A DNA stretch of 47,980 bases. Origin: Microcaldota archaeon. GTDB lineage: Archaea > Micrarchaeota > Micrarchaeia > Micrarchaeales > CABMGC01. The position numbers and the translations under genes were made by a program. Numbering within the stretch: the stretch's first letter is position 1; every line of letters begins with the position of its first letter. The notes under the pieces were generated by a model, which was not told the DNA's origin, searched no databases, and worked only from the letters and a program-made list of their open reading frames with translations. Below, piece after piece: positions 28,263-47,826 of the stretch. The DNA lies in contig JAJYOL010000006.1 of the NCBI GenBank assembly GCA_021796225.1, positions 1 through 47,980 of the forward strand, written 5' to 3'.

Positions 28263-28271
28263 TTCAACACC

Positions 28272-29938: not shown

Positions 29939-29970
29939 AGAGATCCAACGATACAATAAAGGCAAGCATA

Positions 29971-29980
29971 CTTATAAATT
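29971..29980 (-). promoter_or_regulatory. TATA box for the ATPase operon
   Basis: The minus strand reads AATTTATAAG, about 35 to 40 bases upstream of the ATG at 29938. It is squeezed into the 66-base gap after the stop of the six-gene array, so the array and the ATPase operon can be transcribed separately. Confidence 0.55.
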
Positions 29981-30004
29981 CCTGCTTAACGGGCGATACC
30001 GTGC

Positions 30005-31168
30005 CTATATCGCGCGCAGTCTTCCCGACGTTCTTGCCATGCCTCCGAGTATTTCAGCTATCTGCGTTATGAATGCGTAAGTCATGGCGCTTATGAGTGC
30101 GGGGAAAAACAATACCGAAAGCCAATAATCACCGACACTGTTCTGCGCGTTTTTAATGCTCATCGTAATAGGGTTTGTTGGGGAAATCATACTGCTTAAT
30201 CCCGGACAGCTTTCAGACTGTCTGGTTGTGCCTCCGGAATCTTGTATCGGTACTACGCTGCATCCTGAATTACTTTGCAACGAAGATGCGATACTGCTGA
30301 GCTGCTGCACCGTTCCTTGAGAAGTGAAATAATAAGAAAAACTGAACATTACCGGCATGAAGAAGTAGAACCCTATGGCTATTGCCATCATCATGCCTCC
30401 AAGATGACGTGTAGGTATCAGGGACCGGAATATTATTCCGGGTATCAAAAACACGGGTATTGCCGCATACATGAAGAACACGATCGTGTAAAATTCTACA
30501 TGGAGCGCCATGAACCCCCCCATCATCATATCGAAAAAGGCAAAAAGTTCCCAAAAAGTGCTGTATTCGAGCATAAATGGCACAAGCGACGTATCCCCTG
30601 GAATATCGTAAGACACTCCACATGCCGAGTCTACAATTGGTATACATATAAACAACTGTGCCGAAGGTAAAACCATTTCAATAAGGCCTATCTGATACAT
30701 TTCCACAAACGTCACTGAACTGACGTTTATGATATTTCCAATATATCCTAAAGATATGCTATACGGATCATAGGCGCCTACGAAAAGTCCTGGTATCAAT
30801 CCGAACATCGTAGCCGCGACGAAGGAAAACAATATTACTATGAGCGCCGTTGCGGTAGCTTCGTAGAATTCTCCAATACCAAAGATTCTCAGCCTGTCGT
30901 TTCCCAAAGCTATCCCGAACATTATTATCGCTGCGGCTATGGAGAACGATATGAGCATTGCGGCGTATGCCACAGGCTCCCAGACACCCCATATACGTAT
31001 CGCTGCCGCATTTACATTGTTGCAATACCACGGTGCCGTTATGGAAACCACGCTGCTTGCTCCTCCTGTGTTAACATTGCTGCAGTATTGCGTGAATATG
31101 TTGCTCGATTGGGCTCCCGCTATTCCTACAAATGCGAAAAGCAGCAGTAAAACGGCGATTCTTTTCAT
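30005..31168 (-). CDS. VirB6/TrbL-like polytopic membrane protein, paralogue 6
   Basis: The 387-residue protein starts with a cleavable-looking signal peptide (KRIAVLLLLFAFVGIAGAQ) and has about seven further membrane helices. The shared paralogue signature is present as IIFRSLIPTRHLGGMMMAIA, as is the first motif RLRIFGIGEFYEATATALIV. An outside loop carries several Cys (CIPIVDSACG), which could form disulphides. It is last in the six-gene array, four bases after the previous stop. By architecture it fits the VirB6/TrbL channel component of T4SS, though sequence similarity to bacterial members is too faint for me to confirm by eye. Confidence 0.75.
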   Translation of the reverse strand: MKRIAVLLLLFAFVGIAGAQSSNIFTQYCSNVNTGGASSVVSITAPWYCNNVNAAAIRIWGVWEPVAYAAMLISFSIAAAIIMFGIALGNDRLRIFGIGEFYEATATALIVILFSFVAATMFGLIPGLFVGAYDPYSISLGYIGNIINVSSVTFVEMYQIGLIEMVLPSAQLFICIPIVDSACGVSYDIPGDTSLVPFMLEYSTFWELFAFFDMMMGGFMALHVEFYTIVFFMYAAIPVFLIPGIIFRSLIPTRHLGGMMMAIAIGFYFFMPVMFSFSYYFTSQGTVQQLSSIASSLQSNSGCSVVPIQDSGGTTRQSESCPGLSSMISPTNPITMSIKNAQNSVGDYWLSVLFFPALISAMTYAFITQIAEILGGMARTSGRLRAI

Positions 31169-31174
31169 CAAAGG

Positions 31175-32329
31175 TCACATTATGCGCGTAAGCAGCGATA
31201 TGAAGTCCATTCTTTCTCCTACGGATTTTGAAAAGTCCACAATGAACGTATCCACGATTGTTATGTTTATAAGCGGTATAAAAGTCATTCCCATACCGAC
31301 AAGACCGCCGTATATGAGAAACTGCTGAAGTAACGTATACATGGGCAAGGCTCCATAACTGCCTGCTACTCCATTCGGTAACAGAAATGCGGTTGCCAAC
31401 TGGCCCGTAGCCATCTGTAAAAATATTTCTCCTACTGTTAGAACAAATCCTCCGAGAAAACTGGCCGTACACCCAGCACCCAAGACCCCTGACGGTATGC
31501 CCATGTTACACATCAGGTTATGCCCTGCAACTCCCAATGCGTAATCAAGAAATCCGTAGCTTATGCTTGTCATAAGCGGATAAACAAAACCGATTCCAAT
31601 TGCAAAAGCAATCATTGCCCCTCCGAATGTACGCGTAACGCCGAAAGACCTCGCCACCAATCCCACTACCATCAAGGTTCCGAATATCAGTCCGGAAACG
31701 TCTATCAACAGATACTGAACCTGCACAAGCACGTAAAATATGTACATAGAATTAAGCATTGGCACTATGTAGTGGAATACAGGTTCTATCGGAAGAAGGG
31801 ATATGGATATCGAAGTATTTATCGTGCTTAACTTCGGAGGATATGTCAGAGTTATCGACGGTACCATGGAAACCAGTGTTCCTATCCAATATGTTTCGTA
31901 TGTCAAGCTCGTTATATCGTTATTGTAACTCCAAAGGTCGCACACCGAAAGGAAAAAGAGGTTGTTGTATCCCACGCCTGTATTGCCTGTGGGGTTAGTG
32001 ATTGCCGATGCACAGCTTGTTGGCATAAGTCCCGCATTTGTATACGCACTAAGTACGGGCATATTGATCAGCAAGCCTATGAATGCCAGAAATATCAGTA
32101 TCAGGACTATGGAGGAAAGTTCATCGTAGAGTTTGGCCTTTACCCATACCTTAAGGTCATTTCTTCCTATGAGCGGGCTTATTGCGTATATTATTCCGAG
32201 TATCGACATTATTGTCAATGTTATTATTATCGCTATCGGAAACCATATCACATACGGCGAAGTTATTGTGGAGCACAAGCCAGTACATTTTGTCGTTCCC
32301 TGCAATATCAACGGTATAAAATTCATCAT
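31175..32329 (-). CDS. VirB6/TrbL-like polytopic membrane protein, paralogue 5
   Basis: The 384-residue protein has about seven membrane helices and begins with a short outside segment holding two Cys (KCTGLC), without a clear signal peptide. It carries both array motifs: NDLKVWVKAKLYDELSSIVL after the first helix, and LVARSFGVTRTFGGAMIAFA in the core. The start overlaps the previous gene by four bases (ATGA) and follows an AAGGTGAT ribosome-binding site; ATG at 32326 is equally possible. It probably forms part of a hetero-oligomeric membrane complex with its five paralogues (inference). Confidence 0.75.
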   Translation of the reverse strand: MMNFIPLILQGTTKCTGLCSTITSPYVIWFPIAIIITLTIMSILGIIYAISPLIGRNDLKVWVKAKLYDELSSIVLILIFLAFIGLLINMPVLSAYTNAGLMPTSCASAITNPTGNTGVGYNNLFFLSVCDLWSYNNDITSLTYETYWIGTLVSMVPSITLTYPPKLSTINTSISISLLPIEPVFHYIVPMLNSMYIFYVLVQVQYLLIDVSGLIFGTLMVVGLVARSFGVTRTFGGAMIAFAIGIGFVYPLMTSISYGFLDYALGVAGHNLMCNMGIPSGVLGAGCTASFLGGFVLTVGEIFLQMATGQLATAFLLPNGVAGSYGALPMYTLLQQFLIYGGLVGMGMTFIPLINITIVDTFIVDFSKSVGERMDFISLLTRIM

Positions 32330-33504
32330 ATCACCTTCTGGAGCAGCTTGCCGCTCTGCAATGACGGGGCTCCGAGTATGTCACCAAGAAATTCAAGCAT
32401 ATCATACGCTATTATGAAGGAAATTATGAGGCCAGCCATTTGAAATACTATGTATGTTATTGTTGAAGCGTATTGCATTACGTTTTGGAACATTACATCT
32501 CCGAATGCGAATCCTACAAAGGAAGATACAAACGTTTCCAGTACCGAGAATGTATCACCAAGGATATCAAGCTTTACGTTACTACTGCCTGTTTCGTGGC
32601 ACAAAGTCGGTGCCGATTTGCAAATCGCGCTCGAGCTGGAGGCCGAACTAAAAGTATATGAAGAAAACGCGTAGAGGAATGCCGGGAAGATCACATAAAA
32701 CGATATGAACAATGCGATAAGCGCTCCACCGGCAGCCCTTGTCCATGGAAATGCACGCAATGCTATTCCTGCATAAAGAAATATCGGGAACAGGAAATAT
32801 ATTATAAAAAGCGTAAATATCAGCAGCATTCCCATTACTATTATGCTGAAAGTTATATCCATTTCAGACCAAACAGCCGTTCTAAGCGTTTGTGCGCCGT
32901 ATAATGGACCGAATTTAATCCCAAAATCCAACGGCATTACATTGATTTTGAAATCTATTATCATATTGTATATGAAAAGGTCATAGAATACGTCAACATA
33001 TGTGTATATCCCGTTCATTACTATGTTGTTCTGATAATTGGTGCACAAGTTCGTATAAAGTTGTCTCGCACTTACGAAACCCAAATGCGATGAAGTTGCT
33101 CCCGTCGTACTTGCGCTTGCAAGGTTTGCAAGAAACACTGTAGACCCGTTGAATACTCCTATCCCTCCGATTATCAGAACTACTATTGCCACATTGGCTA
33201 TGCTTTCAAGATATTCTGTTTTTACGAATGTTACGAGCTTTGTTATTCCAAATGCCGTGCCTATGGTATAGACGATACCCAATAACGACAGCACGAGAAG
33301 GCTTATTATCAGTGAAATGCCGAGAAGTTCCGTAGGTACCGTTCTTGATGCTATTCCTGCTGTGATAAGCGGGGCAGAAACAGCATTCTGCGCTCCGTTG
33401 CCGAATAAGGTATTGCAATCTAGTATCTGTATCAATTGCGCATGAACTGGAATGGATGTGATTAACAGAAGAAAGGGAATCATAAGCAATGCAATCCTAT
33501 TCAA
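32326..33504 (-). CDS. VirB6/TrbL-like polytopic membrane protein, paralogue 4
   Basis: The 392-residue protein has a signal peptide (IALLMIPFLLLITSIPVHAQ) and about seven membrane helices. The paralogue motifs are TKLVTFVKTEYLESIANVAI and IALRAFPWTRAAGGALIALF, the clearest example in the array. A start at TTG (33504) is chosen because AGGTGATTGA lies just upstream and gives the signal peptide its positive residue; the next ATG (33483) would leave a signal without charge. It lies eight bases after its upstream neighbour. Confidence 0.75.
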   Translation of the reverse strand: MNRIALLMIPFLLLITSIPVHAQLIQILDCNTLFGNGAQNAVSAPLITAGIASRTVPTELLGISLIISLLVLSLLGIVYTIGTAFGITKLVTFVKTEYLESIANVAIVVLIIGGIGVFNGSTVFLANLASASTTGATSSHLGFVSARQLYTNLCTNYQNNIVMNGIYTYVDVFYDLFIYNMIIDFKINVMPLDFGIKFGPLYGAQTLRTAVWSEMDITFSIIVMGMLLIFTLFIIYFLFPIFLYAGIALRAFPWTRAAGGALIALFISFYVIFPAFLYAFSSYTFSSASSSSAICKSAPTLCHETGSSNVKLDILGDTFSVLETFVSSFVGFAFGDVMFQNVMQYASTITYIVFQMAGLIISFIIAYDMLEFLGDILGAPSLQSGKLLQKVI

Positions 33505-33512
33505 TCAATCAC

Positions 33513-35024
33513 CTAAACGAACCTGCCTAACCCTATTATATTGGTGTCTCCTCCGAGAAGGCTTGACAAGCCTACCACGGCAGAGAGCGATACCAGTACA
33601 TTGAGTATATTCATTATGTATCCCGTTACCCCCATTATTCCGTATGCATTGAACAGTGCAAGAGTTGCTTTGGCCATCGTTTTGGGCAGGAAGCAATCGT
33701 ATCCCGGCGGAGTCATAATGCTCGTTCCGGTAAAGCCTGTGAATATTCCTCCTGCACTTGAAACGGTATCTAAAATACCGAATGCCGCTCCGGCTAGCGG
33801 AACAAGGTAATAACTTGAAAAACCAAATTCGACACCGAGAATACTGGAGTAGCTTCTAACGCCGTTCCCCGGATCCCCTGCGGGATAACAGTCGTAATAA
33901 TTCAGTATTTCCGCAACATTCGGGAATTTGAAAAAGTTCAACTGATATGTTACTGCCTGCGATATTTCCGAGTCCTGCAGTGGCAATTCCTTTATCTGCA
34001 TTGAAGGTATGGAATTTGTGCCTATTATCTGCACGCATCCCTGCTGATTGCCCGGTTCCAATCCTTTCGGACCGTATTGGCACAGTACATTACTATTACC
34101 AAGCGATGTGTATTCAAGCAAAACCAGCATCGGTGTTATTATCAATGCAACAAGGACAAATGCTATGATGAGCCCTCCAATCCTTCTCGTGAAAAAGAAC
34201 GTCCTAAGTATTATTCCCGCAGCGAGCATGTACGGCCACCCGTACATGATCAGAAGTATGACAACCATTTCGACAAAATACATGTAAAAGAGGGCAGTAG
34301 CCATTATTTCTATGGGTGGATTTGTAACCCTGTTGAATATGTATCCGACGTAAGGCATGTATGTTGCCGTAATCTGTACCGCATCATATGTGCCTTGAAA
34401 CGGTATGGCGCAAGTCACTGGCATGCAGAATGTCGTTACGGAGTGAAAAGTTCTCAACCATTGCAGAAATCCTTCAACGTAATAAAGTGCATTCAGGTTG
34501 TACAGCGTCTGGTTTGTCATGTTTGCATCTATAACATACGATGCCGCCAATGCGTAGTCCAAATTCGCCGTCATACTGTTTCGCTTGTTAGCAGTCGCTA
34601 TTATCTGATTGCATATCTCACTGGTCGGTCCGGGATCTTTGCTGTTGACGAATGCTATTGCTGAATCAGCCAGATGCGGAGAATTGCATACTGAAGATAT
34701 GCTGCTCGGAGATATCTGCATCGTCTTTGTCGATGTAAGCGTCGTGCCGAATATGGTGAGAATACCTATTATTAATACGACAAGCACCACTGTTCCAATT
34801 GCCTGATAAAATTCTGCAAGAGCTTGCCCTTTGACCTTTGCATTATTCAGTGCGACTCCTAACATGTAATAAGCTGAGGTAAGCATCACGCTGAGCAACA
34901 CTGCTGCGATTATGATGGGGATCCAGTTTTGGAATTGTGAATAGCCTGTTTCGAGACCGGCTGCACCTACCGAAACCGCGAACATTGCGGCAAAAATTAT
35001 GAAAACAGCTGTCTTGTTTACCAT
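33513..35024 (-). CDS. VirB6/TrbL-like polytopic membrane protein, paralogue 3 (longest)
   Basis: At 503 residues this is the largest member. A signal-like helix (KTAVFIIFAAMFAVSVGAAG) is followed by the motif AKVKGQALAEFYQAIGTVVL, an extended outside loop of about 140 residues with six or more Cys, the core motif IILRTFFFTRRIGGLIIAFV, and a second large outside loop rich in Gly/Cys/Tyr. The enlarged loops set it apart from its paralogues and suggest surface exposure. The ATG overlaps the previous stop (TGATG). Confidence 0.75.
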   Translation of the reverse strand: MVNKTAVFIIFAAMFAVSVGAAGLETGYSQFQNWIPIIIAAVLLSVMLTSAYYMLGVALNNAKVKGQALAEFYQAIGTVVLVVLIIGILTIFGTTLTSTKTMQISPSSISSVCNSPHLADSAIAFVNSKDPGPTSEICNQIIATANKRNSMTANLDYALAASYVIDANMTNQTLYNLNALYYVEGFLQWLRTFHSVTTFCMPVTCAIPFQGTYDAVQITATYMPYVGYIFNRVTNPPIEIMATALFYMYFVEMVVILLIMYGWPYMLAAGIILRTFFFTRRIGGLIIAFVLVALIITPMLVLLEYTSLGNSNVLCQYGPKGLEPGNQQGCVQIIGTNSIPSMQIKELPLQDSEISQAVTYQLNFFKFPNVAEILNYYDCYPAGDPGNGVRSYSSILGVEFGFSSYYLVPLAGAAFGILDTVSSAGGIFTGFTGTSIMTPPGYDCFLPKTMAKATLALFNAYGIMGVTGYIMNILNVLVSLSAVVGLSSLLGGDTNIIGLGRFV

Positions 35025-36259
35025 CACATGTTACCCCAGAAAGGTCCTACTCCTATCGCACCCGAAATGGATCCCAATCCTCGAGCCAAACCTTGTGCAA
35101 AACCTATTGTTATTGCAATGTCAAGTGCTATAAGTACGAGGCTTGAAAACATATATTCGGAAATCTCTATTCCATAACCGTTTACCTGCGCCGGTATTTC
35201 GGCTATGGCACCCATTAAATTTATAAACTCCTGTCCGAGACCTCCATTTCCGCTTATTGCACCCCCAAAGAACAGCCCATCAATACTTACGGTACTTCCA
35301 AAAACGCCGAGCTTCAACGGTGTATTGCTATCGAGAATACTGCTGAATGGCAAGTTTATCAGCATATCATTCTGTGCGTATGCGTAATACGGGTTGCAGC
35401 TTCCAGTATACTGCTGCGTTATATGTCCCAAGTCCATCACGTTATTGCTGAAATTCAAACCCACGTTATTCGTGCAAAACATCCAGTTTATGGCATAATT
35501 ATTGAATACCAGTGTTAGCGGAAGGATGAAGTAAAACGCTATCGCTATGGCAAGGAATGCGTCAGCAGCTTCACGAAGTTTCGGCCCTCCAAACGGTATC
35601 ATGCGTATGACGAGCGCTAATGGAACCATCATGGTTATGGCAAAGGATTGCGCAAGAACCAGCAACAACCACATGATGAAAAGCACCCCGTACGATACCA
35701 TCATCATAACCGTATACGTGCTGGTTGAAACGCTCGCATAACCGTAAAAGATTCCAAGTATGTTTGCATTTAAAATCAATCCCGATCCATGTTGTACTAT
35801 CTTTTCCGTTATTCCTATGATAGCTTCGGCCAGGTTTCCCGCAATTAGGTAATTTATGCTTGTAACATACATATCTCCGAATATCTGCCCGCTGGTAGTA
35901 AACAACAGGTTGTTCATGTACAATTGTGCGAATTGAAACGGATCTTGGTAGGTGCCTGCCGTAAGTCCCTGGGTCATCGAATTGCCCATCTGGCATCCGA
36001 GTCCAGCAAAAATCACCAATATCAATATTATAAACAAAGCTATGATACCCTGTACTATCTCCGCTTTGACTATACCTCTGAGTTTTTCCCTTCTTGTTGT
36101 GGAAAGGAAACTGCTAAGTGCATATATCAATCCTCCAACTGAGATAGCCAAAAGCACAATGATTGTGGATATCGCAATCCAATCTCCCTGGTTCAACGCA
36201 CCGAATGTACACGTTTCGGATGCCGCACCGGCAACTGTGTTAAGCAGTATTAAATTCAT
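35024..36259 (-). CDS. VirB6/TrbL-like polytopic membrane protein, paralogue 2
   Basis: This protein of about 411 residues has roughly seven membrane helices. The first motif is REKLRGIVKAEIVQGIIALF. The core motif is the most divergent of the six (LVIRMIPFGGPKLREAADAF), keeping the Arg and Pro but with the GG pair moved. Outside loops hold a few Cys (MFCTNN, SCNPYY). The start is either ATG at 36259 or TTG at 36271, both close to the end of the preceding gene, so translation is probably coupled. Confidence 0.72.
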   Translation of the reverse strand: MNLILLNTVAGAASETCTFGALNQGDWIAISTIIVLLAISVGGLIYALSSFLSTTRREKLRGIVKAEIVQGIIALFIILILVIFAGLGCQMGNSMTQGLTAGTYQDPFQFAQLYMNNLLFTTSGQIFGDMYVTSINYLIAGNLAEAIIGITEKIVQHGSGLILNANILGIFYGYASVSTSTYTVMMMVSYGVLFIMWLLLVLAQSFAITMMVPLALVIRMIPFGGPKLREAADAFLAIAIAFYFILPLTLVFNNYAINWMFCTNNVGLNFSNNVMDLGHITQQYTGSCNPYYAYAQNDMLINLPFSSILDSNTPLKLGVFGSTVSIDGLFFGGAISGNGGLGQEFINLMGAIAEIPAQVNGYGIEISEYMFSSLVLIALDIAITIGFAQGLARGLGSISGAIGVGPFWGNM

Positions 36260-36263
36260 TTCA

Positions 36264-37514
36264 TCACGCAAGTTTCAGTTTGCCGCCCAAATTCAACCTT
36301 ATTGTTCCTCCAAGAGATTTGGCTATGCTGTCCGTCAACGGATATATTATCATCAAGTCAAGAACAAACAACAAAAATTGCACTATCAAATAGAATGCAT
36401 AATGTATTACATCGTTTACGAATGGGAATATTCCTCCCAACATCGCTTCCAACCCATAATTTATCGAAGCCGTGTTATCAAGCATTGCCGTGACGGAAGA
36501 TACTAATTGGGAGTTAGCTATGACGTATATTGTTCCGGTGAATGGATTAGTTACTATTATTGGGCTGGGCTGAGGAAGGACATTGGCTGCCCATGCCGAC
36601 ACTGGCAAATTCAACAACACGAGCGTTGCGGGAAATATGAGCGCCATCGATATACCCATCGCAATAAGCGTGCCTCCTACCCCTCTTACTACAGGAAATG
36701 CGCGGAGCACGAGTCCCATCGGTATCAGGACTGTAAGTCCGACAGAAACGAGTAATGGCAATCCGGGTATCATTATTCCATCAAGTGCTGTGACAGGGAA
36801 AAGGACATACTGTGTCAAATCGTATATCATAGATTCAAAGTGCTGTATGATTATGTTACCAGATTCGAGCATGAAGTTTTGGTATATATTCATGATAAAC
36901 CCGGAAAGTATGGCACTACCGCCATCGGGAGGTATCAACGGCAATGGGATCGGCACCCAAAGCCCTATTACCATATTTTGGAAAACGCCTATACCTATGC
37001 TTTCCGCACCTATGAACTCCCATGCAGGCTGTACTGCATTTCCAACACTGCAAAAATACGATTCCGATGCGGTTATCAAAGCGCCTATGTTAGGTATGTA
37101 ACTGTTTCCAGGGCTGTGGACCCCGGAAACGATAAGGGCTATGCTGCTAACAAGCGTTATGATAGTATAAATGGCGGCTACGAGAAGTGCGGATTTCGCT
37201 ATCTCGTAATATTCGCCGCTAAGCCAGCTCTTGAGCTTCGTTCCTGGCAGCACCGCGTTTATCATGTATCCTACCGCAACGACATCTATTGCAAGCGACA
37301 GGGCAATAATCGAAAGCGCTATTGCGGTCGACTCGCTGGGCAGCGGTATACTTCCTCCAGTCGCGGTATTCGACAGCCCGGAAATCCCTCCCGTCTGGCA
37401 TGCCTGCGTATAAGTAATGTAATGCGTCTGGCTTGCACTAGCGGTCTGCGCGGCAGCTATGTGTGCAGCAAAAACCGTAAAAATCAGGATCAGGATTCCT
37501 GAGGTCAAGCGCAT
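36264..37514 (-). CDS. VirB6/TrbL-like polytopic membrane protein, paralogue 1
   Basis: The first gene of the array encodes 416 residues, with a signal peptide (MRLTSGILILIFTVFAAHIA then AAQT) and about seven membrane helices. Motifs: GTKLKSWLSGEYYEIAKSAL and LVLRAFPVVRGVGGTLIAMG. The C-terminus ends in a basic, glycine-rich segment that should face the cytoplasm. A TATA box about 29 bases upstream of the ATG marks the promoter for the whole array, which continues through six genes with gaps of at most eight bases or short overlaps. Confidence 0.77.
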   Translation of the reverse strand: MRLTSGILILIFTVFAAHIAAAQTASASQTHYITYTQACQTGGISGLSNTATGGSIPLPSESTAIALSIIALSLAIDVVAVGYMINAVLPGTKLKSWLSGEYYEIAKSALLVAAIYTIITLVSSIALIVSGVHSPGNSYIPNIGALITASESYFCSVGNAVQPAWEFIGAESIGIGVFQNMVIGLWVPIPLPLIPPDGGSAILSGFIMNIYQNFMLESGNIIIQHFESMIYDLTQYVLFPVTALDGIMIPGLPLLVSVGLTVLIPMGLVLRAFPVVRGVGGTLIAMGISMALIFPATLVLLNLPVSAWAANVLPQPSPIIVTNPFTGTIYVIANSQLVSSVTAMLDNTASINYGLEAMLGGIFPFVNDVIHYAFYLIVQFLLFVLDLMIIYPLTDSIAKSLGGTIRLNLGGKLKLA

Positions 37515-37537
37515 GTTTAATAGTTGCCCTTATCAAG

Positions 37538-37549
37538 ATATAAATATAC
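37538..37549 (-). promoter_or_regulatory. TATA box for the six-gene VirB6-like array
   Basis: The minus strand reads GTATATTTATAT about 25 to 35 bases upstream of the ATG at 37514, consistent with a nearly leaderless operon transcript. Confidence 0.6.
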
Positions 37550-37563
37550 TCTTGGCAACGGAA

Positions 37564-38322
37564 TCAGTGCGACAAAAGCGGGAACTTTCTCATGTACGCT
37601 TCCGTCTGCAGTATGACAAAATACGGCAGTATGACTATCGAAATGAGGAAAAGCATGACGTATCCCGATACGACGGGCCCCCAAGGTATAGCTATTATTA
37701 TCGCGTCAAGAACCGATATTGTAACTGCAAAGAGCAGTACCCATATCGCGTAGTATTGCGGCGAGCTCCTTATGAGCTTCACGCTGTCCGTTATAGCCCT
37801 TCCCACCCGCTTGTTGTCTATCACTACCGCACTCGGCGCATAGAACATGACCGTTCCTATCAGAAGCCCGAATATCGCGGTTATCAGCACCGCGGCAGAC
37901 GGGAAGAGGGCGTAGCTTGCAAGATTTACCGCAAGAAGGAGAAAGCCGTATATCATGAGTATTACGAATACCTTTCCAACGTGTTTTTCTATTTCCATCA
38001 GGGCTCTCTTTCCTATTCCCGAATGCGTCTTTCTGGATTTTACTATCAGGCTTATCGCGACATACGCGAAGCTCAGGAAAAGCAGCGTGAATATGTACGA
38101 TACAACTATGACTGCAATGCTGAAAACGCTTATGCCTGCCATCCCCGCCCCGCTGAGGAATATCCCTCCAAGCGTTACGTACGTGGACAGATGTGCGGCT
38201 ATCGGTATTATGAATGCTATTGCGAACGGTATCGAAAAGAGCCAAACGAGTTTAAGGTTCTCCGCATACGTTCTGCATGCTTCCTGCAGCAATCCAGGCA
38301 TGTTTTCCCTCAGCCTATACAT
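37564..38322 (-). CDS. Six-helix membrane protein of unknown function
   Basis: The 252-residue protein has about six hydrophobic helices and cytoplasmic basic segments (VKSRKTHSGIGKRALMEIEK and DNKRVGRAITDSVKLIRSSP). Its general look resembles the glycerophosphoryl-diester/DUF4013-type integral membrane proteins of archaea, but I cannot name a family. It lies 50 bases upstream of the VirB6-like array on the same strand, separated by that array's promoter. The ATG at 38322 is preferred over a TTG three codons earlier. Confidence 0.65.
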   Translation of the reverse strand: MYRLRENMPGLLQEACRTYAENLKLVWLFSIPFAIAFIIPIAAHLSTYVTLGGIFLSGAGMAGISVFSIAVIVVSYIFTLLFLSFAYVAISLIVKSRKTHSGIGKRALMEIEKHVGKVFVILMIYGFLLLAVNLASYALFPSAAVLITAIFGLLIGTVMFYAPSAVVIDNKRVGRAITDSVKLIRSSPQYYAIWVLLFAVTISVLDAIIIAIPWGPVVSGYVMLFLISIVILPYFVILQTEAYMRKFPLLSH

Positions 38323-38372
38323 GCCAATCAAGTATTAAAAACATATCGCGGTTGCATCATTCTGCAAATCCG

Positions 38373-40274
38373 TCATTTTACATACGCGCTTTCATTCACC
38401 ACGTCGTCGGAATAATAGACGTATTTCGTATCGTAAATCATCGCATGAAGCCTAGTTGCCCTGTCTGTGACATGTTGCCCTTCTATCACCGCATGTACGT
38501 CGTAAATACCATCTTTTCCAACAAGATTTATCCTGTTGTAATTGACATAACATGTATAACTATCGTTGCATTCCGGATGCGTGCCGATCAGGCTGTTGTT
38601 GATTCCGTATATACCATACACCATCGTATAATTGCTATATCCCTGCAGGTAAAGGTATACCGTTCCGTTTGTCATGTTTGAATAATGCAGTTGTGCGTCG
38701 TATATCGTATTATTGCCGATATAGCTTATACTCTGATTTGTAATACGCACGTCAAAGTTCGAAAGATACTGCATGTGATACAAATATATTCCAATGACAA
38801 ATACCATTACGATTATCAAAAGCGCCAGATAAAACACACCGATATTTCTATGCAGGTATCTCGTAATCAATCCTCTGTCCTGTTTTTCCTTCTTTACCGC
38901 AGCCAAAGCAAATGCGCCGAAGAACAGGAAGAACGTATAATATTTACCCAAAGTGTGAAACAGCACCATCATAGGCATGAGAGATAGAAATGGCACAAGA
39001 ACCTTCCTATCGAAGAATAACAGAAGAGTTATTGACAATATCGTAAACATTGAAAACGCAAAAACAGCCGCATCTATCGGGACATGATATCCAAACAGCA
39101 TCAAAGAACCAGTTGGCGGTATTCCAAATGGAAAAAGATTTCCTATCGGTGCAAATACCGCATCAAAATATGCTCTGGGGTTTGCAATTATGAAAACACT
39201 GTTTATAAGAAGGAACACTGCAACGGCTCCTGCAGCTTTTTTCATGCCCTTTAACAGTCCCTCTCTGTTTAATGCATATACCAACATCAGTATTATCGGT
39301 ATCCATGCTTCTTCCTGTAACGATGCGGCAATTCCTAATGGTATAAAGGAATATTGACTATCAAGTTTCACATATGATATGACAAGAAACAGCAGTACAA
39401 GGTAGTCTACTGGACTTGTAACCGTACTAAGCATAAATACAAACATGGCAATAAATCCGAAATCAAATCCGCGCAACTTTTTTTCATTGAGCAGTATTGC
39501 AATGCCACTTACGAGCAAAAAGATAAATATCGAAACTTCTATCTTGACGCCGATGTGCGATATATTGTATATCGTAGGCAACGAGAAAAGATAGAATGGG
39601 ACAGCAACTATAAAGTAAAGGGCAGGGTAGTTGGTTTTGCCGATAACTTCGTTATTCATCGTCAGCGTTCCGCCCGCCGTGGAAAAATTAGAATAGATGT
39701 ACTTTGCAAACGATTCCGCATAGGGGTTTTGCTGCATCAAAATGCTTTTAACGTCTAAGGCGCTTATAATTGTCTCGTCTCCTACCTGAAACGATTTCAC
39801 AATATATACGAAAAAAATAATACTGATTAAGAAAGCAATGGCGAGAAGAAAAAGTCCTAATCTGATCTGTTTTTTTGCAAAAATAAAATATGCTCCGAAG
39901 GCAGAGCATGCAAACGTGGGGATTAGGAACAAGAGATAAATTCCGAATTCACGTGCATATCCCAAACCCTTAATTATCGTATAAACTGATGCAATTTTAG
40001 CATGAAATGAAAATAATATCACAAACGCTATCGTGAGGATTATCGGAAGGATTAATCTCACATTTTTTCCATCAATGCCTGTTAACTGTTTTCCTGATGC
40101 TATCAATCCATAGATTATGAAATATATGAATCCAGCCGCGATATACAATACAGATAATGCGTTATACGCTAAAGAACTCGAATATGTTTCATTACTAACA
40201 ATCAAAAAATACGCAAACGATAAAAGCGCCATATAAAAAGCAGCCTTTTCATATCTGCTGCCGCTTGCATCCAT
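38373..40274 (-). CDS. GT-C-type membrane glycosyltransferase candidate
   Basis: The 633-residue protein has about twelve membrane helices and a C-terminal outside domain of about 130 residues with several NxS/T sequons and a Cys pair (CNDSYTC). The first long outside loop contains VGDETIISALDVKSILMQQN, placing an acidic pair (Asp-Glu) where GT-C lipid-sugar transferases keep their catalytic acid. A second loop carries QEEAW. This layout suggests a polyprenyl-phosphate-sugar-dependent transferase that glycosylates surface proteins or lipids. Its place between the pilin-like genes and the VirB6-like array suggests modification of that apparatus, which is inference. A TATA box lies at 40297-40305. 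Confidence 0.6.
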   Translation of the reverse strand: MDASGSRYEKAAFYMALLSFAYFLIVSNETYSSSLAYNALSVLYIAAGFIYFIIYGLIASGKQLTGIDGKNVRLILPIILTIAFVILFSFHAKIASVYTIIKGLGYAREFGIYLLFLIPTFACSAFGAYFIFAKKQIRLGLFLLAIAFLISIIFFVYIVKSFQVGDETIISALDVKSILMQQNPYAESFAKYIYSNFSTAGGTLTMNNEVIGKTNYPALYFIVAVPFYLFSLPTIYNISHIGVKIEVSIFIFLLVSGIAILLNEKKLRGFDFGFIAMFVFMLSTVTSPVDYLVLLFLVISYVKLDSQYSFIPLGIAASLQEEAWIPIILMLVYALNREGLLKGMKKAAGAVAVFLLINSVFIIANPRAYFDAVFAPIGNLFPFGIPPTGSLMLFGYHVPIDAAVFAFSMFTILSITLLLFFDRKVLVPFLSLMPMMVLFHTLGKYYTFFLFFGAFALAAVKKEKQDRGLITRYLHRNIGVFYLALLIIVMVFVIGIYLYHMQYLSNFDVRITNQSISYIGNNTIYDAQLHYSNMTNGTVYLYLQGYSNYTMVYGIYGINNSLIGTHPECNDSYTCYVNYNRINLVGKDGIYDVHAVIEGQHVTDRATRLHAMIYDTKYVYYSDDVVNESAYVK

Positions 40275-40296
40275 ATTAATCCTTTAAGCTATATGC

Positions 40297-40305
40297 CTTT
40301 TATAC
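40297..40305 (-). promoter_or_regulatory. TATA box for the GT-C gene
   Basis: The minus strand reads GTATAAAAG, 23 to 31 bases upstream of the ATG at 40274, consistent with a nearly leaderless transcript. Confidence 0.6.
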
Positions 40306-40378
40306 TCGAACATTAAATTTTTGATCCGTATCTATTAGCTTATTAGGCAATCTCAAAATTAGATCAAAAGTCTATTAA

Positions 40379-40409
40379 AAAAAGAACAGATGCCGCAAAA
40401 AACGCGGCA
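40379..40409 (-). terminator. Intrinsic terminator after the VirB2-like pair
   Basis: On the minus strand TGCCGC pairs with GCGGCA (40404-40409 with 40391-40396) around a T-rich loop and is followed by TCTGTTCTTTTTTT. It lies about 30 bases after the stop of the pilin-like gene at 40438. Confidence 0.7.
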
Positions 40410-40437
40410 CCATGTAGTTATAAAATACTAGTAAGTT

Positions 40438-40845
40438 TTATAGTTGCCCGCAGGTTCCTATATAACCCGTGCCTCCACCAAGGTTTGTTATCATGTTTAC
40501 AAGGTAAGGTGCAAGCAGTACGAGTATTATCCCGACTATTCCTCCCATGATCATACCGAGTGACCATCCCTGCAGGTTTCCTCTCAGGTTACCCGCGGCA
40601 GGAAGCATGTGCGCACCTGCGTAAAGGCTGCCTCCGGCAATGAACAGGAGCAATGCAAGTATGCCTATCACGGTTCTTATTTCGCCGACTATTGCACATA
40701 GACTCAAGGAAAGTGCTGAAACACTCCCTGTTCCGGTACCTGTCGTTGTCGCTGAAACAATTGTGGCAAAGATCGTTCCTACCACGAACACATAGTACAA
40801 CATCTTCAGGTTTTTCAAAAACCTTGGGTTCTTTATCAAATTCAT
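40438..40845 (-). CDS. VirB2/TrbC-like pilin candidate (copy A)
   Basis: The 135-residue protein has an N-terminal helix that looks like a signal ending near residue 35 (FVVGTIFATIVSA), then a mature part with two membrane helices (VIGILALLLFIAGG and MIMGGIVGIILVLLAPYLV). A short basic/hydrophilic turn (AAGNLRGNLQGW) joins them. This two-helix hairpin with small residues is the architecture of VirB2/TrbC pilins. The mature C-terminal half is nearly identical to copy B. The ATG at 40845 follows GGGAGATAAA; ATG at 40857 is possible. A TATA-like ATATTTAAA on the minus strand near 40925 may give it its own promoter. Confidence 0.75.
   Translation of the reverse strand: MNLIKNPRFLKNLKMLYYVFVVGTIFATIVSATTTGTGTGSVSALSLSLCAIVGEIRTVIGILALLLFIAGGSLYAGAHMLPAAGNLRGNLQGWSLGMIMGGIVGIILVLLAPYLVNMITNLGGGTGYIGTCGQL
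40520..40623. repeat. 104-bp perfect direct repeat, copy 1
   Basis: Inside pilin-like copy A, this stretch is identical base for base to 41026-41129 in copy B, 506 bases away. It codes for the turn and second membrane helix. Flanking gene sequence is diverged, so recent gene conversion or strong sequence constraint is implied. Confidence 0.95.
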
Positions 40846-40943
40846 TTTATCTCCCATTCAGTATTAACATTGCATATTATGCCTTTTCCTCTTCTTATAT
40901 CTATTCTCATTGGTTTAAATATCTTGCCTATGAACGAAACTTA

Positions 40944-41333
40944 TTACGTAACGCACGTTCCTATGCCTTCGGATGCGCCTCCGCCTATGCCTATTATCAT
41001 ATTCAGTATATACGGTGCAATAAGCACGAGTATTATCCCGACTATTCCTCCCATGATCATACCGAGTGACCATCCCTGCAGGTTTCCTCTCAGGTTACCC
41101 GCGGCAGGAAGCATGTGCGCACCTGCGTACATCGTACCTCCCGCAATGAAAAGAAGCAATGCGAGCACTCCTATTACCGTTCTGAAAGAAGTCACTATGC
41201 TGCAAAGGCTTGCGGTAAGCGTGCTTACCTGCTGATTGACCGTTGAGCTGGTCGATGCCGATACGAGCGCTCCTGCCATTGCCACTGCCAAAACCATGAA
41301 ATACAAAGTCTTCAATGTCTTAAAGAAGTTCAT
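40944..41333 (-). CDS. VirB2/TrbC-like pilin candidate (copy B)
   Basis: The 129-residue protein has a signal-like N-terminus (KTLYFMVLAVAMAGALVSA), a short Ser/Thr-rich mature start, then two membrane helices (VIGVLALLLFIAGGTMYAG and MIMGGIVGIILVLIAPYIL), and ends with GTCVT. It is the upstream partner of copy A. A TATA box on the minus strand (GTATTTAAGG, about 41373-41382) and an AAGGTAGAG site precede the ATG. Two abundant pilin-like subunits with separate promoters would fit a filament or membrane pore made of mixed subunits (inference). Confidence 0.75.
   Translation of the reverse strand: MNFFKTLKTLYFMVLAVAMAGALVSASTSSTVNQQVSTLTASLCSIVTSFRTVIGVLALLLFIAGGTMYAGAHMLPAAGNLRGNLQGWSLGMIMGGIVGIILVLIAPYILNMIIGIGGGASEGIGTCVT
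41026..41129. repeat. 104-bp perfect direct repeat, copy 2
   Basis: Identical to 40520-40623; see that entry. The identity stops abruptly on both sides (preceding base t against c, following base a against c). Confidence 0.95.
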
Positions 41334-41456: not shown

Positions 41457-42368
41457 TTACAGCTTCATCGATGCGATGAGCCCGTTTATGATTCCGTGAA
41501 CGCCTATGCCTCCTGTCGATCTCACGCTTATCCTGTGGCTCAGCACCGGCACCGCAAGGAATTTAATGTCGTCGCTGCTTACCTCCTTTCTTCCTTCAAT
41601 GAGCGCCTTTGCCTTTGCCGCACGCATGAATGCAAGGTCCGCACGCGGGCTCGCGCCCATGACGGTATGTATCTCCTTTCTCGTCGCGCTGACCATCTTC
41701 GCTATCAATTCGACTATGTTGTCGGGGATTACAATCTTCTTCGCATCCTCCTGCATTTGAAGTATGTCTGCGGTAGTGATTATCTTCTTTATTTCGACAC
41801 GGTCCTCCCTTTCCTTTATCCTAATCATTTCTATTTCGTCTTCCATTTCGGGATAATCCACGTCTATCTTCACTATGAATCTGTCGGCGAGCACTTTCGG
41901 AAGAGGCTCCGTGCCTTCTATCCTCAACGGGTTCTGCGTTGCAAACGCGATGAACGGATTCGGCAACGGCATGTTGACTCCCCCTGCGGTGACCTGCCTT
42001 TCTTCAAGAGTCTCGAGAAGCGCGCTCATGGTTTTAGGCGGAGCCCTGTTCAATTCGTCTACAAGGAGTATGTTGGTAAAGACCGGGCCTTTTCTGAACT
42101 GGATATTGCTTTTCTCGTCAAGATAACTGTTGCCAACTATGTCGGAAGGGACGAGGTCCGGCGTTCCCTGTATCCTCTTGAAATCAGCACTGGTTGCATC
42201 TGCCATGGTCTTGCACATGGTTGTCTTCGCGACTCCGGGAACTCCTTCAAGGAGCGCGTGTCCGTTAGCAACCATCGTTATGAACATCAGTTCTATGGTG
42301 TCCTTCTTACCCGCGATATGCTTCTTCATTTCCGTGAGTATGCTTTCATAAGCTTCGTTAGCATTCAA
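41457..42368 (-). CDS. MoxR-family AAA+ ATPase
   Basis: The 303-residue protein is a MoxR-type AAA+ ATPase, a chaperone class that inserts cofactors or remodels complexes, usually with a von Willebrand A-domain partner. Walker A is EGVPGVAKTT, Walker B is ILLVDELNRAPP, the sensor 1 region is FIAFATQNP, and the arginine segment is PKVLADRFIVK; sensor 2 is GASPRADLAF. The start is TTG at 42368, with a strong GAGGTGTT site six bases upstream, and the first residues (NEAYESILTEMKKHIAGK) match the family. No VWA gene lies nearby. Its neighbours are the pilin-like genes, on the same strand, so it may serve the T4SS-like machine. Confidence 0.93.
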   Translation of the reverse strand: MNANEAYESILTEMKKHIAGKKDTIELMFITMVANGHALLEGVPGVAKTTMCKTMADATSADFKRIQGTPDLVPSDIVGNSYLDEKSNIQFRKGPVFTNILLVDELNRAPPKTMSALLETLEERQVTAGGVNMPLPNPFIAFATQNPLRIEGTEPLPKVLADRFIVKIDVDYPEMEDEIEMIRIKEREDRVEIKKIITTADILQMQEDAKKIVIPDNIVELIAKMVSATRKEIHTVMGASPRADLAFMRAAKAKALIEGRKEVSSDDIKFLAVPVLSHRISVRSTGGIGVHGIINGLIASMKL

Positions 42369-43894: not shown

Positions 43895-44224
43895 ATGGTT
43901 GGTATAATGAAAAAAGAGTCAAAATCTTCAGGCAAGAAAGTAAGCCTGCACCCTGAATTCAAGATTGAGAACATAGTCGCGAGCGCGGACTTGGGCGTAG
44001 AGCTGGATCTTTACGGGATAGCAAAGGCATCATCCGATGTCGATTACGAACCCGAGCAGTTCCCTGGAGCAATATGCAAGATTCACGATCCGAAGACGGC
44101 ATTGCTTCTCTTCAAGAACGGAAAGATAATCTGCACGGGTGCAAAGACCGAAGCCGACATAAAGAGGGCAATAGATCAGGTCATAAAGATAGTGAAAAAC
44201 TACATAATAGCACCAAGGGAATAA
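43895..44224 (+). CDS. tbp: TATA-binding protein with a single TBP repeat
   Basis: The 109-residue product has one complete TBP repeat and nothing more. The repeat contains IENIVASADLGVELDLYGIA, then YEPEQFPGAICKI, then DPKTALLLFKNGKIICTGAK and a closing helix. The two DNA-intercalating phenylalanines of a repeat are present (FPG and LLLF). Normal TBPs have two such repeats in one chain of about 180 residues. After the last residue the frame stops at TAA, and no second repeat is found in any frame downstream, so this is not a frameshift of a full gene. Two molecules would have to pair to form the saddle. A Lys/Ser-rich N-terminal tail of about 20 residues precedes the repeat. Start ATG 43895 or 43907. 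Confidence 0.88.
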   Translation: MVGIMKKESKSSGKKVSLHPEFKIENIVASADLGVELDLYGIAKASSDVDYEPEQFPGAICKIHDPKTALLLFKNGKIICTGAKTEADIKRAIDQVIKIVKNYIIAPRE

Positions 44225-44457: not shown

Positions 44458-47400
44458 ATGGGGGTAAGATACAAAATTTCCGGCAAAGGCAGTTCCGTTT
44501 ACGAAGGAAATGACCCAGTCAAAAGATTCGAAGCACGACTTGACAAATTCTTTTCAAATCCTGCGGGGGACAGAATCGCGGCAAATCTCGACAAAAACAA
44601 GACCCATGGTATTTCACGCGAATCCCGTATCATGACTGATGCATCAAGGCAATTTGTAAACGAACACTCCGCGGATATCCTTTCCAAATATCCGAATTCT
44701 TCAACTTCTGACGTATCATCGCAAGAGTTGGGCAAAACGATAAAAAAACTCAATCCCCTGGTTGCTGCAGAACTTCTCATATCCATGTCAGAAGAATCGT
44801 TTGTGCATCTTTCAAACGGCGAGTTTCTTTCCAAACTATCGGCAATGGATCACAACATCGCAAGCGCATTGCTATACGAAATAAGGCTTACGGAAAAATC
44901 ATCGGCGGTTACGAAAATCGGCGGCAATCCATTCGCTCTTGCGGATCCTAAATTGCTGAATGAAACATCACTTCGCTTTTTCGAACGACTGGGAGCGGAA
45001 GCGGCAAGCGAACTCTTTTATGCGATACGCAAGACCGATAACGCCGGCGCACTCCTGAACGAGAGCGTCATGAACGAGAGCATTGTCAAACTGGCAAGGG
45101 AAAACGTACGGCTTGCAGGTGAACTATTTGTTGCAATAGGCACCACAAACATGCCGGAACGCCTTACTTCTGAAAAATTCATAAGTCACCTGCGTTCGAT
45201 GGGTGCGGAAGTGGCCGTAGATTACGTATCCGCATTATGGCTAATGCCGCGCAATGCGTCCAGACTCGTATCAGACAGCATGGCGCGAAAGATAATAGAC
45301 AGGAAAATAGACGTATGGACGGATGTCGTCAGAAATCCTTCAAGCGAGGTGAGAAGGTCGGAACCTCTGGTGCTGATTGCAAACACGGAATCGGAAGGTC
45401 ATGACAGAGGGGCAAAACTTGCATTCCAGTATTTCATGCAAAACGGGTTCAATGTCATGTACGCTGGCAAGGCAACCACCCCACAGGCAATAACCAGCAT
45501 GGCTGAAAAATACAAAGCAGGGGCAATAGGTATCAGTCTTCCCGGAGATCAGTATGGCAATGTGGCAAAAGAGCTCGTATCAAAAATGAAAGCGGTAGGC
45601 ATGGGCAACGTGCCCATCTTCGGCGGAGGCATCGTCTCAAAAGGCACGATCGAGCACCTATCAAGGAACGGCATAAGGTTCCTCACAGACAAAGATTCGA
45701 TAACACGGATCATATCCTCGGTAAAATTGGACGGTATTAATCCGAAAAAATTGTCGTACGGTAATTTCCTGGCACTTTCAAGTACGTATTTTTCACCGAC
45801 AACGCAGGAATACGCATACGTTTCGGGAGATCACGCTGCAATAACACTGCCATACCTTTTCAACGGCGCCGTTTCCTATAGTGCTTCAGCATCACGCAAC
45901 ACTGATTTGCGATTTCAAGGCATGATGTTTGCATTGAAGTCTGGTCTTGCACGCATGAACAGCCAAAATGGTTTCCGTTTAACAATGACTTCTTCGATAT
46001 CTGAAAATTTTGTCAAAAAATCCTTCAGCATGCATAACACCGCATTGCATAATGCTTTGCAATCTTCGCTTCGAATTGCAATGGCAGCAAATCAGCACAC
46101 GCATTCGGCAAAAGTTTTACCCATTTCTTCCCAAAGCATTTCAAAAACAAACTTTTCACGAATCAATGCACGAATGCCGAATAAATCAATAGTGCTGCAA
46201 AGCAAAGCATCAGATAAAGCATTCGTATTGCATTTTCCAGTTAAATTCATCCTTTCAAATGCGCGAATCTCAGGGACGGCTTTTTCAAGTCAAATTCCTA
46301 TTCCGATATCGGCAAAAACAACTCCTACAATCGTTACTAATCGTGACATTCCGGCAAACAAGGTTCAAGTTCATTCGACATTGCAAAAAACATTTTTTTC
46401 CCAACACAACCATACCCTATTGCAGACCTCTTCCCGTAATGTGTTAATATCGCAAATTTTCACCTCTCCAGTTCAAATGACAAGACCGCAATTCCAAGAA
46501 ATGGTAATGCAAATGCTTCCGAACGTATCGGGCAATGCGTCATCTACGAACATCACCAGCGAATTTAAGATAAAACCGATGCAGGCTGCGCCGCATAAAA
46601 TAAAATATTCAAACGCATTGAAACCGTCCTTTCAAACGTTGACGGAAAAAACGAGTACGCCTTTGGATCGGGATCATTCCCCATGCTTGGTTTTATATTC
46701 CGAAAAACATCCTCCCGCAGAAATCACACCACCTGGACAAATACGCCTTCAATATCAAATACTTGGGATAACGCTTACAGGAAAAACTACAGTGGCAATT
46801 CCGGCTGCATTGCGGTATGCCTATCAGGCTGCCGTGCAACAGTTTAGCAATACGGCACAGAACATCGAAATCACTCCGCAGGCTCAGGCGTTTTATTCCG
46901 CTTACGGGCTCGGCGTGCAGCCGGCTTCGCAGGCCGCAGCTTTGTCACTAGCTTCTCAGCAACCCACACTAGCCAGGCTACAACAATCCCCACAATCAGT
47001 AAATCTTCAAGCACCCCTGCTAGCAAATACAATACCAACGAGCGGCTCACTATCTCAGCCATATCAACTCCAATCAGCGTCAACACTGACCAATACGAAC
47101 GCAGTCAATCAAACATCCAACGGGCAAGCTGCTTTTTTTCAACGGTTTTCATACGATTATCCTTACACGCAAACGGGTATAAACAAACCGAGATTTCGTT
47201 TTCTACAGACGAAAATAACAATCGAAATCCCTACACTGTCATTCTCTAAGACAAATTCTCCAGTGCCATCTACTCTTCATCATCATGTTCCAATAACCGT
47301 TAAAGAAAAAATGGGAAGAAACCGATATTCCGTGTCCGATACGGCCATTTCCACTGCAAAACTGCAAAAATTCTTTCGGCCAATCGGTTTGCCACATGCA

Positions 47401-47826
47401 ATTGCAACAACCGTAACGAAACGTTTTGAGGATTTTCACATTGAAAACGAAGAACAGCCGCGGAAGCAACCGGCGGTTGCACTACGATCAAAACACATTT
47501 CCGATCCCCATACGGATGCCGTTGCCATAGATAATGCAAGCAACCTGAAAGATTCTCGGGCTTCGAATCCAACCGTTGTCGTAAGTAATGCGGCGGTAGA
47601 TTCTCATCGCAGGGAAAGGCCGGCATATCGGCACGTTCTGCCGTTCCAATTCAATGAAAAAAGAAAAGGAGACGTAATCGCGTTAACAAGCGTTGCGTCA
47701 AACACGCACGCAATATTGTTTGTCATTGCATGTTTTGGAATTGCATCCCTGTTGTCTGTGCAATTTTTCTCGGCACATCACTTCTCTGCGGCTCTCTTGC
47801 TGACTTTCTTTATAAAAATAATGTAA
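44458..47826 (+). CDS. Large protein with a B12-binding domain and a membrane-anchored Ser/Thr-rich tail
   Basis: The 1122-residue protein has four parts. Residues 1-300 are helical, with about five repeats of 35-40 residues (for example NPLVAAELLISMSE, NIASALLYEIR, GAEAASELFYAIR, NVRLAGELFVAIG, GAEVAVDYVSALW). Residues 301-422 are a B12-binding domain of the methylmalonyl-CoA mutase C-terminal type, with EGHDRGAK (candidate cobalt-ligand His315; the usual first Asp is Glu), GISLPGDQY and FGGGIVSKG. Residues 430-1085 are low-complexity, rich in Ser, Thr, Asn and Gln. The last 35 residues hold a membrane helix (HAILFVIACFGIASLLSVQF). No mutase or methyltransferase domain is present. The start at 44458 follows GGTGG; ATGs at 44410 and 44425 are possible. 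The end overlaps the convergent DedA gene by 49 bases. Confidence 0.8.
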   Translation: MGVRYKISGKGSSVYEGNDPVKRFEARLDKFFSNPAGDRIAANLDKNKTHGISRESRIMTDASRQFVNEHSADILSKYPNSSTSDVSSQELGKTIKKLNPLVAAELLISMSEESFVHLSNGEFLSKLSAMDHNIASALLYEIRLTEKSSAVTKIGGNPFALADPKLLNETSLRFFERLGAEAASELFYAIRKTDNAGALLNESVMNESIVKLARENVRLAGELFVAIGTTNMPERLTSEKFISHLRSMGAEVAVDYVSALWLMPRNASRLVSDSMARKIIDRKIDVWTDVVRNPSSEVRRSEPLVLIANTESEGHDRGAKLAFQYFMQNGFNVMYAGKATTPQAITSMAEKYKAGAIGISLPGDQYGNVAKELVSKMKAVGMGNVPIFGGGIVSKGTIEHLSRNGIRFLTDKDSITRIISSVKLDGINPKKLSYGNFLALSSTYFSPTTQEYAYVSGDHAAITLPYLFNGAVSYSASASRNTDLRFQGMMFALKSGLARMNSQNGFRLTMTSSISENFVKKSFSMHNTALHNALQSSLRIAMAANQHTHSAKVLPISSQSISKTNFSRINARMPNKSIVLQSKASDKAFVLHFPVKFILSNARISGTAFSSQIPIPISAKTTPTIVTNRDIPANKVQVHSTLQKTFFSQHNHTLLQTSSRNVLISQIFTSPVQMTRPQFQEMVMQMLPNVSGNASSTNITSEFKIKPMQAAPHKIKYSNALKPSFQTLTEKTSTPLDRDHSPCLVLYSEKHPPAEITPPGQIRLQYQILGITLTGKTTVAIPAALRYAYQAAVQQFSNTAQNIEITPQAQAFYSAYGLGVQPASQAAALSLASQQPTLARLQQSPQSVNLQAPLLANTIPTSGSLSQPYQLQSASTLTNTNAVNQTSNGQAAFFQRFSYDYPYTQTGINKPRFRFLQTKITIEIPTLSFSKTNSPVPSTLHHHVPITVKEKMGRNRYSVSDTAISTAKLQKFFRPIGLPHAIATTVTKRFEDFHIENEEQPRKQPAVALRSKHISDPHTDAVAIDNASNLKDSRASNPTVVVSNAAVDSHRRERPAYRHVLPFQFNEKRKGDVIALTSVASNTHAILFVIACFGIASLLSVQFFSAHHFSAALLLTFFIKIM

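Follow-up and report, generated by a model that had tools for sequence, protein, structure and literature searches.

In Aeropyrum pernix the small subunit of methylmalonyl-CoA mutase is a stand-alone archaeal protein (PDB: 2yxb; TIGR00640) that carries an HDRG motif with the cobalt-ligand histidine and a GGG loop. CarH/LitR and the photocobilins likewise have a B12 domain without a mutase or methyltransferase and place helices before it; in AerR/PpaA, MtaC and MetH the preceding helices form a four-helix cap. Here we analyse a 1122-residue protein encoded near one end of the window, by which we mean the whole stretch of 47,980 nucleotides under study, an entire contig (JAJYOL010000006.1, assembly GCA_021796225.1) of a 789,309-base Micrarchaeota genome with a completeness of 82.7%. 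The protein shares fold, HDRG motif and GGG loop with 2yxb, but has in addition a helical-repeat arm and a long tail, and its family of genomes has no large subunit. Unlike CarH/LitR and the photocobilins it lacks the light signature, and no helix-turn-helix, globin or enzyme output domain was found in it. Helices precede the B12 domain as in AerR/PpaA, MtaC and MetH, but amount to about 240 residues of repeats, and the sequence is nearer to mutases. Two further known systems appear in relatives of the protein: the J-domain of DnaJ-type co-chaperones, present in the tails of two members (genomes G023 and G105) and in a separate J-gene, is here joined to a B12 domain, and the C-terminal domain of two other members is that of the CYTH or triphosphate tunnel enzymes (NeuTTM), here fused to a B12 protein.

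Our preferred reading, to which we assign a probability of about 0.45, is that the protein is a cytosolic, often membrane-tethered adaptor or escort gated by adenosylcobalamin (AdoCbl) and linked to chaperones; it is best read as neither a mutase, nor a surface protein, nor a light receptor of the CarH type. The computed basis comprises the fold, the conserved cobalt-ligand histidine, the absence of the mutase large subunit, the helical-repeat arm, the variable tails and the J-domain fusions. Micrarchaeota are partner-dependent archaea with roughly one-megabase genomes, and a share of them keep this long protein around a B12 domain although they lack the corresponding type of B12 enzyme. If AdoCbl is bound, this would be a non-catalytic use of the vitamin in archaea. 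The family also illustrates re-use of a catalytic-subunit module after loss of the enzyme: the head is conserved, and the tail is almost wholly different from one species to the next. It is an undescribed protein family, found in Micrarchaeota: it was not met in the accessible literature on cobalamin and ribonucleotide reductase in Micrarchaeota, on archaeal B12-binding domains with disordered or membrane parts, on enzyme-less B12 domains and on B12 photoreceptors (subscription papers and preprints excluded), nor is there such a protein in the available part of a cobalamin-gene survey of DPANN.

An orphan mutase-type B12-binding domain

A Pfam scan of the protein returns a single family, B12-binding (PF02310), at residues 305-401 (E = 2.5e-10; 40.7 bits, above the curated cut-off of 32.1). 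The signature motifs are EGHDRG with the histidine at position 315, GISLPG (358-363) and FGGG (388-391). The AlphaFold model of the core (pLDDT 78.6, pTM 0.77) is helical between residues 54 and 291 and alternates strands and helices between 302 and 421. The B12 part superimposes best on 2yxb (Z-score: 16.9, r.m.s.d.: 2.4, 127 residues, 29% identity), with further matches to the B12 domains of the mutases 4r3u and IcmF (also found by Foldseek) and weaker ones to AerR/PpaA, MtaC and MetH (Z-scores from 12.9 to 15.2). A profile built from eight members and run against the PDB also places 2yxb first (E = 1.3e-23), ahead of methionine synthase and the corrinoid proteins. The fold comparison was run as a check that could have refuted the B12 assignment made in the first-pass annotation; it found a fold with B12 relatives rather than a plain fold without them. 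The remaining parts of the architecture proposed there, the helical repeats, the Ser/Thr/Asn/Gln-rich tail and the C-terminal membrane helix, are borne out by AlphaFold, composition and hydropathy, although ‘giant’ overstates a protein of 1122 residues.

A profile search finds helical repeats joined to the B12 domain in 19 of the 79 genomes of the taxonomic family and in 21 of the 164 of the order, the two additional carriers belonging to another family. Because 20 further homologs span both domains, a chance juxtaposition is excluded. The relatives in 13 named records are all metagenome-assembled genomes (MAGs) of Candidatus Micrarchaeota. Members are divergent (26-40% core identity to the window protein in aligned sets of 7 and 13), and resolution of the core tree is poor, with 5 of 18 inner branches well supported. 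Related genomes share the helical and B12 parts of the architecture; the tails differ, some including a J-domain or a CYTH domain.

His315, E141, E181, S184, W287 and the two glycines of the GG loop (G390 and G391) are invariant in 21/21 members, and W261 is kept in 20. The aspartate of the usual DxHxxG motif is substituted in many members, in the window protein by glutamate. From what is known of mutases we take His315 to be the lower cobalt ligand, and since it is kept in such highly divergent proteins, the domain is likely to have retained cobalamin binding.

The mutase large subunit (MM_CoA_mutase, PF01642) is absent from all 79 family genomes, the window's own included, these being incomplete MAGs. 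The same model gives 712 bits for the mutase found in an order relative, where the neighbours of the mutase are a stand-alone B12 subunit and MeaB. With no mutase catalytic subunit in these genomes and no enzyme domain in the protein itself, the B12 domain is an orphan, as the first-pass annotation had it, and the protein very likely performs no mutase catalysis. The PF02310 cut-off is passed in 19/79 genomes, 17 of them through the helical and B12 family and two (G061, G063) through stand-alone subunits. Seven further genomes have weaker matches, two of these being members of the family, and four carriers (G017, G064, G079, G080) have an extra sub-threshold match; where present, the protein is thus the main or only one with a B12-binding domain. 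In two family genomes a stand-alone mutase-type B12 subunit (L089:7006-7812 and L090:6667-7098) adjoins apparent gyrase genes (named by eye), and the mutase large subunit was not found in either.

The helical-repeat domain

Modelled alone (residues 50-300), the helical domain is predicted with higher confidence (pLDDT 88.4). No confident solved relative was found for it by Foldseek (best E = 0.17) or VIA (best Z-score 10.5); the best matches of both are designed proteins and fall under the level that is meaningful for helical repeats, and the missing match does not show that the fold is new. Alignments with the corrinoid proteins MtaC, MetH and MttC begin at about model residue 262. Related long repeat proteins (L030, L032, L034, L091, L092) share the helical repeat and have no B12 domain; a Pfam scan of the repeat proteins L032, L091 and L031 gave no match over cut-off.

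The tail and the membrane helix

Ser, Thr, Asn and Gln make up 33.6% of residues 426-1080; their share is lower in the B12 domain (21.6%) and in residues 1-300 (22.7%). Residues 428-1080 are probably disordered. The tail ends in a strongly hydrophobic segment (best 19-residue window at residue 1086, Kyte-Doolittle value 2.37), a value reached in 0/500 shuffles of the tail. No hydrophobic N-terminal signal was detected among 15-residue windows starting within the first 60 residues (best Kyte-Doolittle value -0.13). By hydropathy alone the protein thus has the features of a tail-anchored protein, a single C-terminal hydrophobic helix without an N-terminal signal, and the position of its only strong hydrophobic segment, at the extreme C-terminus, points to a tail anchor that leaves the B12 domain in the cytosol. 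The surface display once considered for it is disfavoured on the same two grounds.

The tail frame is free of stops over about 690 codons, whereas each of the five alternative frames contains 8-18 stops per 333 codons. Codon-usage scores for the tail are low (-0.14 and -0.16; the core scores +0.18, and 16 other open reading frames of the window range from +0.22 to +0.47), although among the six frames the true one scores highest. For the sister MAG pair L083/L084, and not for the window protein's own tail, dN/dS is 0.19 in the helical domain, 0.17 in the B12 domain, 0.42 in the tail linker and 0.14 in the C-terminal CYTH domain; constraint is strong on the head and the CYTH domain and weaker on the linker, and the values indicate that the tail of this pair is translated and under weak constraint.

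Tails are mostly unalignable between members (three pairs aligned at E 0.01 in a BLAST of 19); a separate comparison aligned those of L026 and L093 (G023 and G105) with 32.5% identity over 280 residues. A C-terminal membrane helix is present in 5 of 18 tail ends, those of all three carriers from the window's genus and of L021 and L025; the count omits L022, L081 and L093, where the contig ends first, and reads G007 from its second contig. The remaining tails terminate in amphipathic or Cys-rich ends. L087 and L088, whose tails are otherwise different, share the Cys-rich end CYCSCH. Two sister genomes, G079 and G087, have a CYTH-type domain at the C-terminus of the protein that matches 3typ and 2fbl in the PDB (E = 3e-12) and gave no match in Pfam; the ExExK visible in its sequence is a CYTH hallmark according to PMC8233210. 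The entry 2fbl is listed as NE1496 and we take it to be NeuTTM. The latter is an inorganic triphosphatase of Nitrosomonas europaea (PMC3440374).

J-domain fusions and the adaptor reading

Two members from different families carry a J-domain in their tails (G023, E = 2.2e-15; G105, E = 4.3e-16) and share the C-terminal region; the DnaJ family (PF00226) is found in L026 and L093, and not in the window protein, where B12-binding is the only family found. The window's own genome encodes a separate J-protein (G000:C14:107658-108266; L128:3485-4447, minus strand) that matches the fused tail at E = 2.2e-35 with 34% identity and whose DnaJ domain scores 2.3e-16. In G106 the J-protein is a separate gene whose product is 61% identical to the fused G105 copy, its nearest copy. 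The J-proteins of the window's genome and of G005 group as a pair on a long stem, and the B12 proteins of the two genomes do likewise.

At an E-value of 1e-8 the J-region is matched in 150/164 order genomes, mostly by plain J-domains. Long matches (E < 1e-30) occur within the window's family in 12/19 carriers, one of them fused (G023), and in 6/60 non-carriers; counting separate J-proteins, the comparison is 11/18 carriers, the window's genome among them, with 6/60 non-carriers (p = 3e-5). Counted by genus the association weakens (p = 0.06; p = 0.012 when the fused genus is included), and inside the two genera it is not significant (p = 1.0 and 0.13), so that the fusion is the main evidence for a chaperone link and the co-occurrence partly reflects kinship. 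The approximately unbiased test does not reject a single fusion behind both J-tails (p-AU 0.445), and independent fusions are therefore not claimed. The neighbours of the separate J-genes (tRNA-nucleotidyltransferase-like, phosphomannomutase-like and others, named by eye) show no link to B12.

How such a protein might work can be sketched as follows. A mutase-type AdoCbl-binding domain would have lost its enzyme and become a ligand-binding module. AdoCbl from the PduO-type adenosyltransferase would bind it in the His-on state, and binding would change how the helical repeats rest against the B12 domain or against a partner. The tail, long and flexible, would tether this module to the cytosolic side of the membrane, as in the window's genus, or alternatively would bring a J-domain and hence Hsp70, in other carriers via the separate J-protein. 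The protein might deliver AdoCbl, for example to ribonucleotide reductase, or might report the AdoCbl status of the cell. The absence of a signal peptide, the C-terminal anchor, the repeat arm and the B12 switch fit the anatomy of an adaptor, and the J-domain fusions suggest the chaperone link; they offer a concrete, testable partner that could connect B12 status with protein folding or membrane processes. A stronger version, in which AdoCbl on the enzyme-less domain decides whether a dedicated J-protein directs Hsp70 towards a client or the membrane, is doubtful at present. We know of no cobalamin-regulated J-protein, and a literature search on B12-binding domains together with J-domains yielded none either.

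Several observations weigh against the adaptor reading, besides the genus-level statistics given above. Cobalamin binding is read from the sequence and model; conservation is lost at the acidic residue two before the histidine, the SxL motif is kept loosely, and the window protein scores 49.2 bits with TIGR00640 (mutase C-terminal), below the cut-off of 57.45 (other scores are 23.2 for L020, 56.1 for L093 and 149 for the true stand-alone subunit L027). The J-protein is missing at E 1e-30 from 7/19 carriers and has homologs in many order genomes without the B12 protein, and the correlation of B12 and J distances in a mirror-tree analysis is lost without the close pairs (partial r = 0.23, p = 0.28). 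The co-occurrence with the adenosyltransferase described below is not significant by genus (p = 0.19), and ribonucleotide reductase is not enriched (17/19 carriers, 54/60 others). Finally, the gene is dispensable: G001 has no B12 gene at the same locus.

Cobalamin supply and alternative functions

A PduO-type cobalamin adenosyltransferase is encoded in the window's own genome (G000:C2:27479-27961, E = 7.1e-49) and in 55 of the 79 family genomes. The same genome has a class II-type ribonucleotide reductase (NrdJ_Z, 552 bits, cut-off 400). With both matches in the one genome, AdoCbl is probably present in the cell.

These two enzymes are also the basis of the alternative that survives best, which is possible though we favour it less: the protein would be a store or escort, loaded straight from the adenosyltransferase and holding AdoCbl for the class II ribonucleotide reductase, with the tail and the J-domain serving to localise or refold it. 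The adenosyltransferase occurs in 18/19 carriers as against 37/60 non-carriers (Fisher, p = 0.008) and in G016 its gene lies beside the B12 gene, divergently oriented; NrdJ_Z is matched, at any score, in 71/79 genomes. Such loading has a parallel in human MMAB, which releases triphosphate and for which the data in PMC9262797 suggest direct transfer of AdoCbl to methylmalonyl-CoA mutase, and the NeuTTM-like CYTH domain fused in G079 and G087 could clear the triphosphate by-product. However, the 37 non-carriers possess the adenosyltransferase without the B12 protein, the CYTH fusion is confined to two sister MAGs, and the 10 other genomes that have a separate CYTH gene include no carrier and never have that gene on the adenosyltransferase contig. 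The link between CYTH and triphosphate is thus unsupported by co-occurrence.

That the B12 domain no longer binds cobalamin, and persists only as what is left of a mutase subunit with a structural or protein-binding role, is rather unlikely: no catalytic partner is found in the 79 genomes, the DxHxxG and SxL motifs have partly decayed and the domain falls under the mutase model cut-off, but loss of the ligand would be expected in such a remnant, whereas the histidine and both glycines are kept in all 21 highly divergent members and the B12 domain of the sister pair is under constraint (dN/dS 0.17).

A B12 photoreceptor, in which light cleaves the AdoCbl bound to an enzyme-less domain and so changes assembly as in CarH or the photocobilins, is improbable. 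It would account for an AdoCbl domain without an enzyme, the photocobilin 8j2y aligns with model residues 190-427 (Z-score: 14.1, r.m.s.d.: 4.9, 171 residues), and W287 and W261 are kept in 21/21 and 20/21 members. The light signature of CarH-type proteins is given in PMC11796333 as GxxW, EH, GxxH and GxxxP. By pattern match all four elements together are present in 0/21 members (singly GxxW in 1, EH in 2, GxxH in 8 and GxxxP in 6), the B12 domain is closest to mutases, and no DNA-binding or enzyme output domain was found, so the analogy with light sensors drawn in the first-pass annotation does not extend to the CarH type.

Lastly, although its nearest solved relatives are mutase small subunits, the protein is highly unlikely to be the small subunit of a divergent acyl-CoA mutase with a large subunit too different to detect, as PF01642 finds none in the 79 genomes yet gives 712 bits on the order's mutase, no neighbour gene is conserved across genera, and the window protein reaches 49 bits with TIGR00640, compared with 149 for a genuine stand-alone subunit from the order.

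The locus

The features of the gene are collected in Table 1. An alternative start, TTG at 44383, is possible. Both the window and G005 have the B12 gene after the TATA-binding protein gene; in G007 the TATA-binding protein gene adjoins the end of the B12 gene and the order is inverted. We use the TATA-binding protein gene as an anchor for the locus in relatives from the genus and do not think of it as functionally linked to the B12 gene. In G001 the gene that forms the other flank of the B12 gene in G005 (52.7% identity) comes about 150 bases after the TATA-binding protein gene, and no remnant of a B12 gene was found at this empty site (L163:5417-5573). Because the gene is absent from a conserved locus, it is accessory. 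The long J-protein is likewise missing from G001 at E 1e-30. No widely shared neighbour gene was found outside the window's genus, no relative of the protein among viral contigs, and no PADLOC model for anti-phage defence was matched for three members.

Table 1. Positions in the window of the B12 gene, its parts and the adjoining gene.
Feature	Positions	Strand	Evidence or remark
Whole open reading frame, 1122 residues from ATG	44458..47826	+	Helical repeats, B12-binding domain, long tail and C-terminal membrane helix
Helical-repeat domain, residues 54-291	44617..45330	+	Predicted helices, homologous in 21 proteins; without Pfam match
Mutase-type B12-binding domain, residues 302-427	45361..45738	+	Pfam PF02310, PDB profile match, fold match
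Codon of His315 in EGHDRG, expected lower cobalt ligand	45400..45402	+	Invariant in 21/21 members
Low-complexity Ser/Thr/Asn/Gln-rich tail, residues 428-1080	45739..47697	+	Composition; without Pfam match
C-terminal hydrophobic helix, about residues 1086-1104, up to the C-terminus	47713..47823	+	Kyte-Doolittle hydropathy, shuffles
TATA-binding protein gene, just upstream of the B12 gene	43895..44224	+	Pfam TBP (3e-30), synteny

Elsewhere in the window, a secretion- or conjugation-like cluster lies on the minus strand (26745-41333), with an ATPase of the VirB4/TraG/HerA type (Pfam DUF87, 8e-16; AAA_10, 1e-13), two small open reading frames resembling TrbC/VirB2 pilins (1e-4 and 0.007, both under cut-off) and several large ones without Pfam matches. 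It is followed by a MoxR ATPase (41457-42368), and synteny with L020 is partial.

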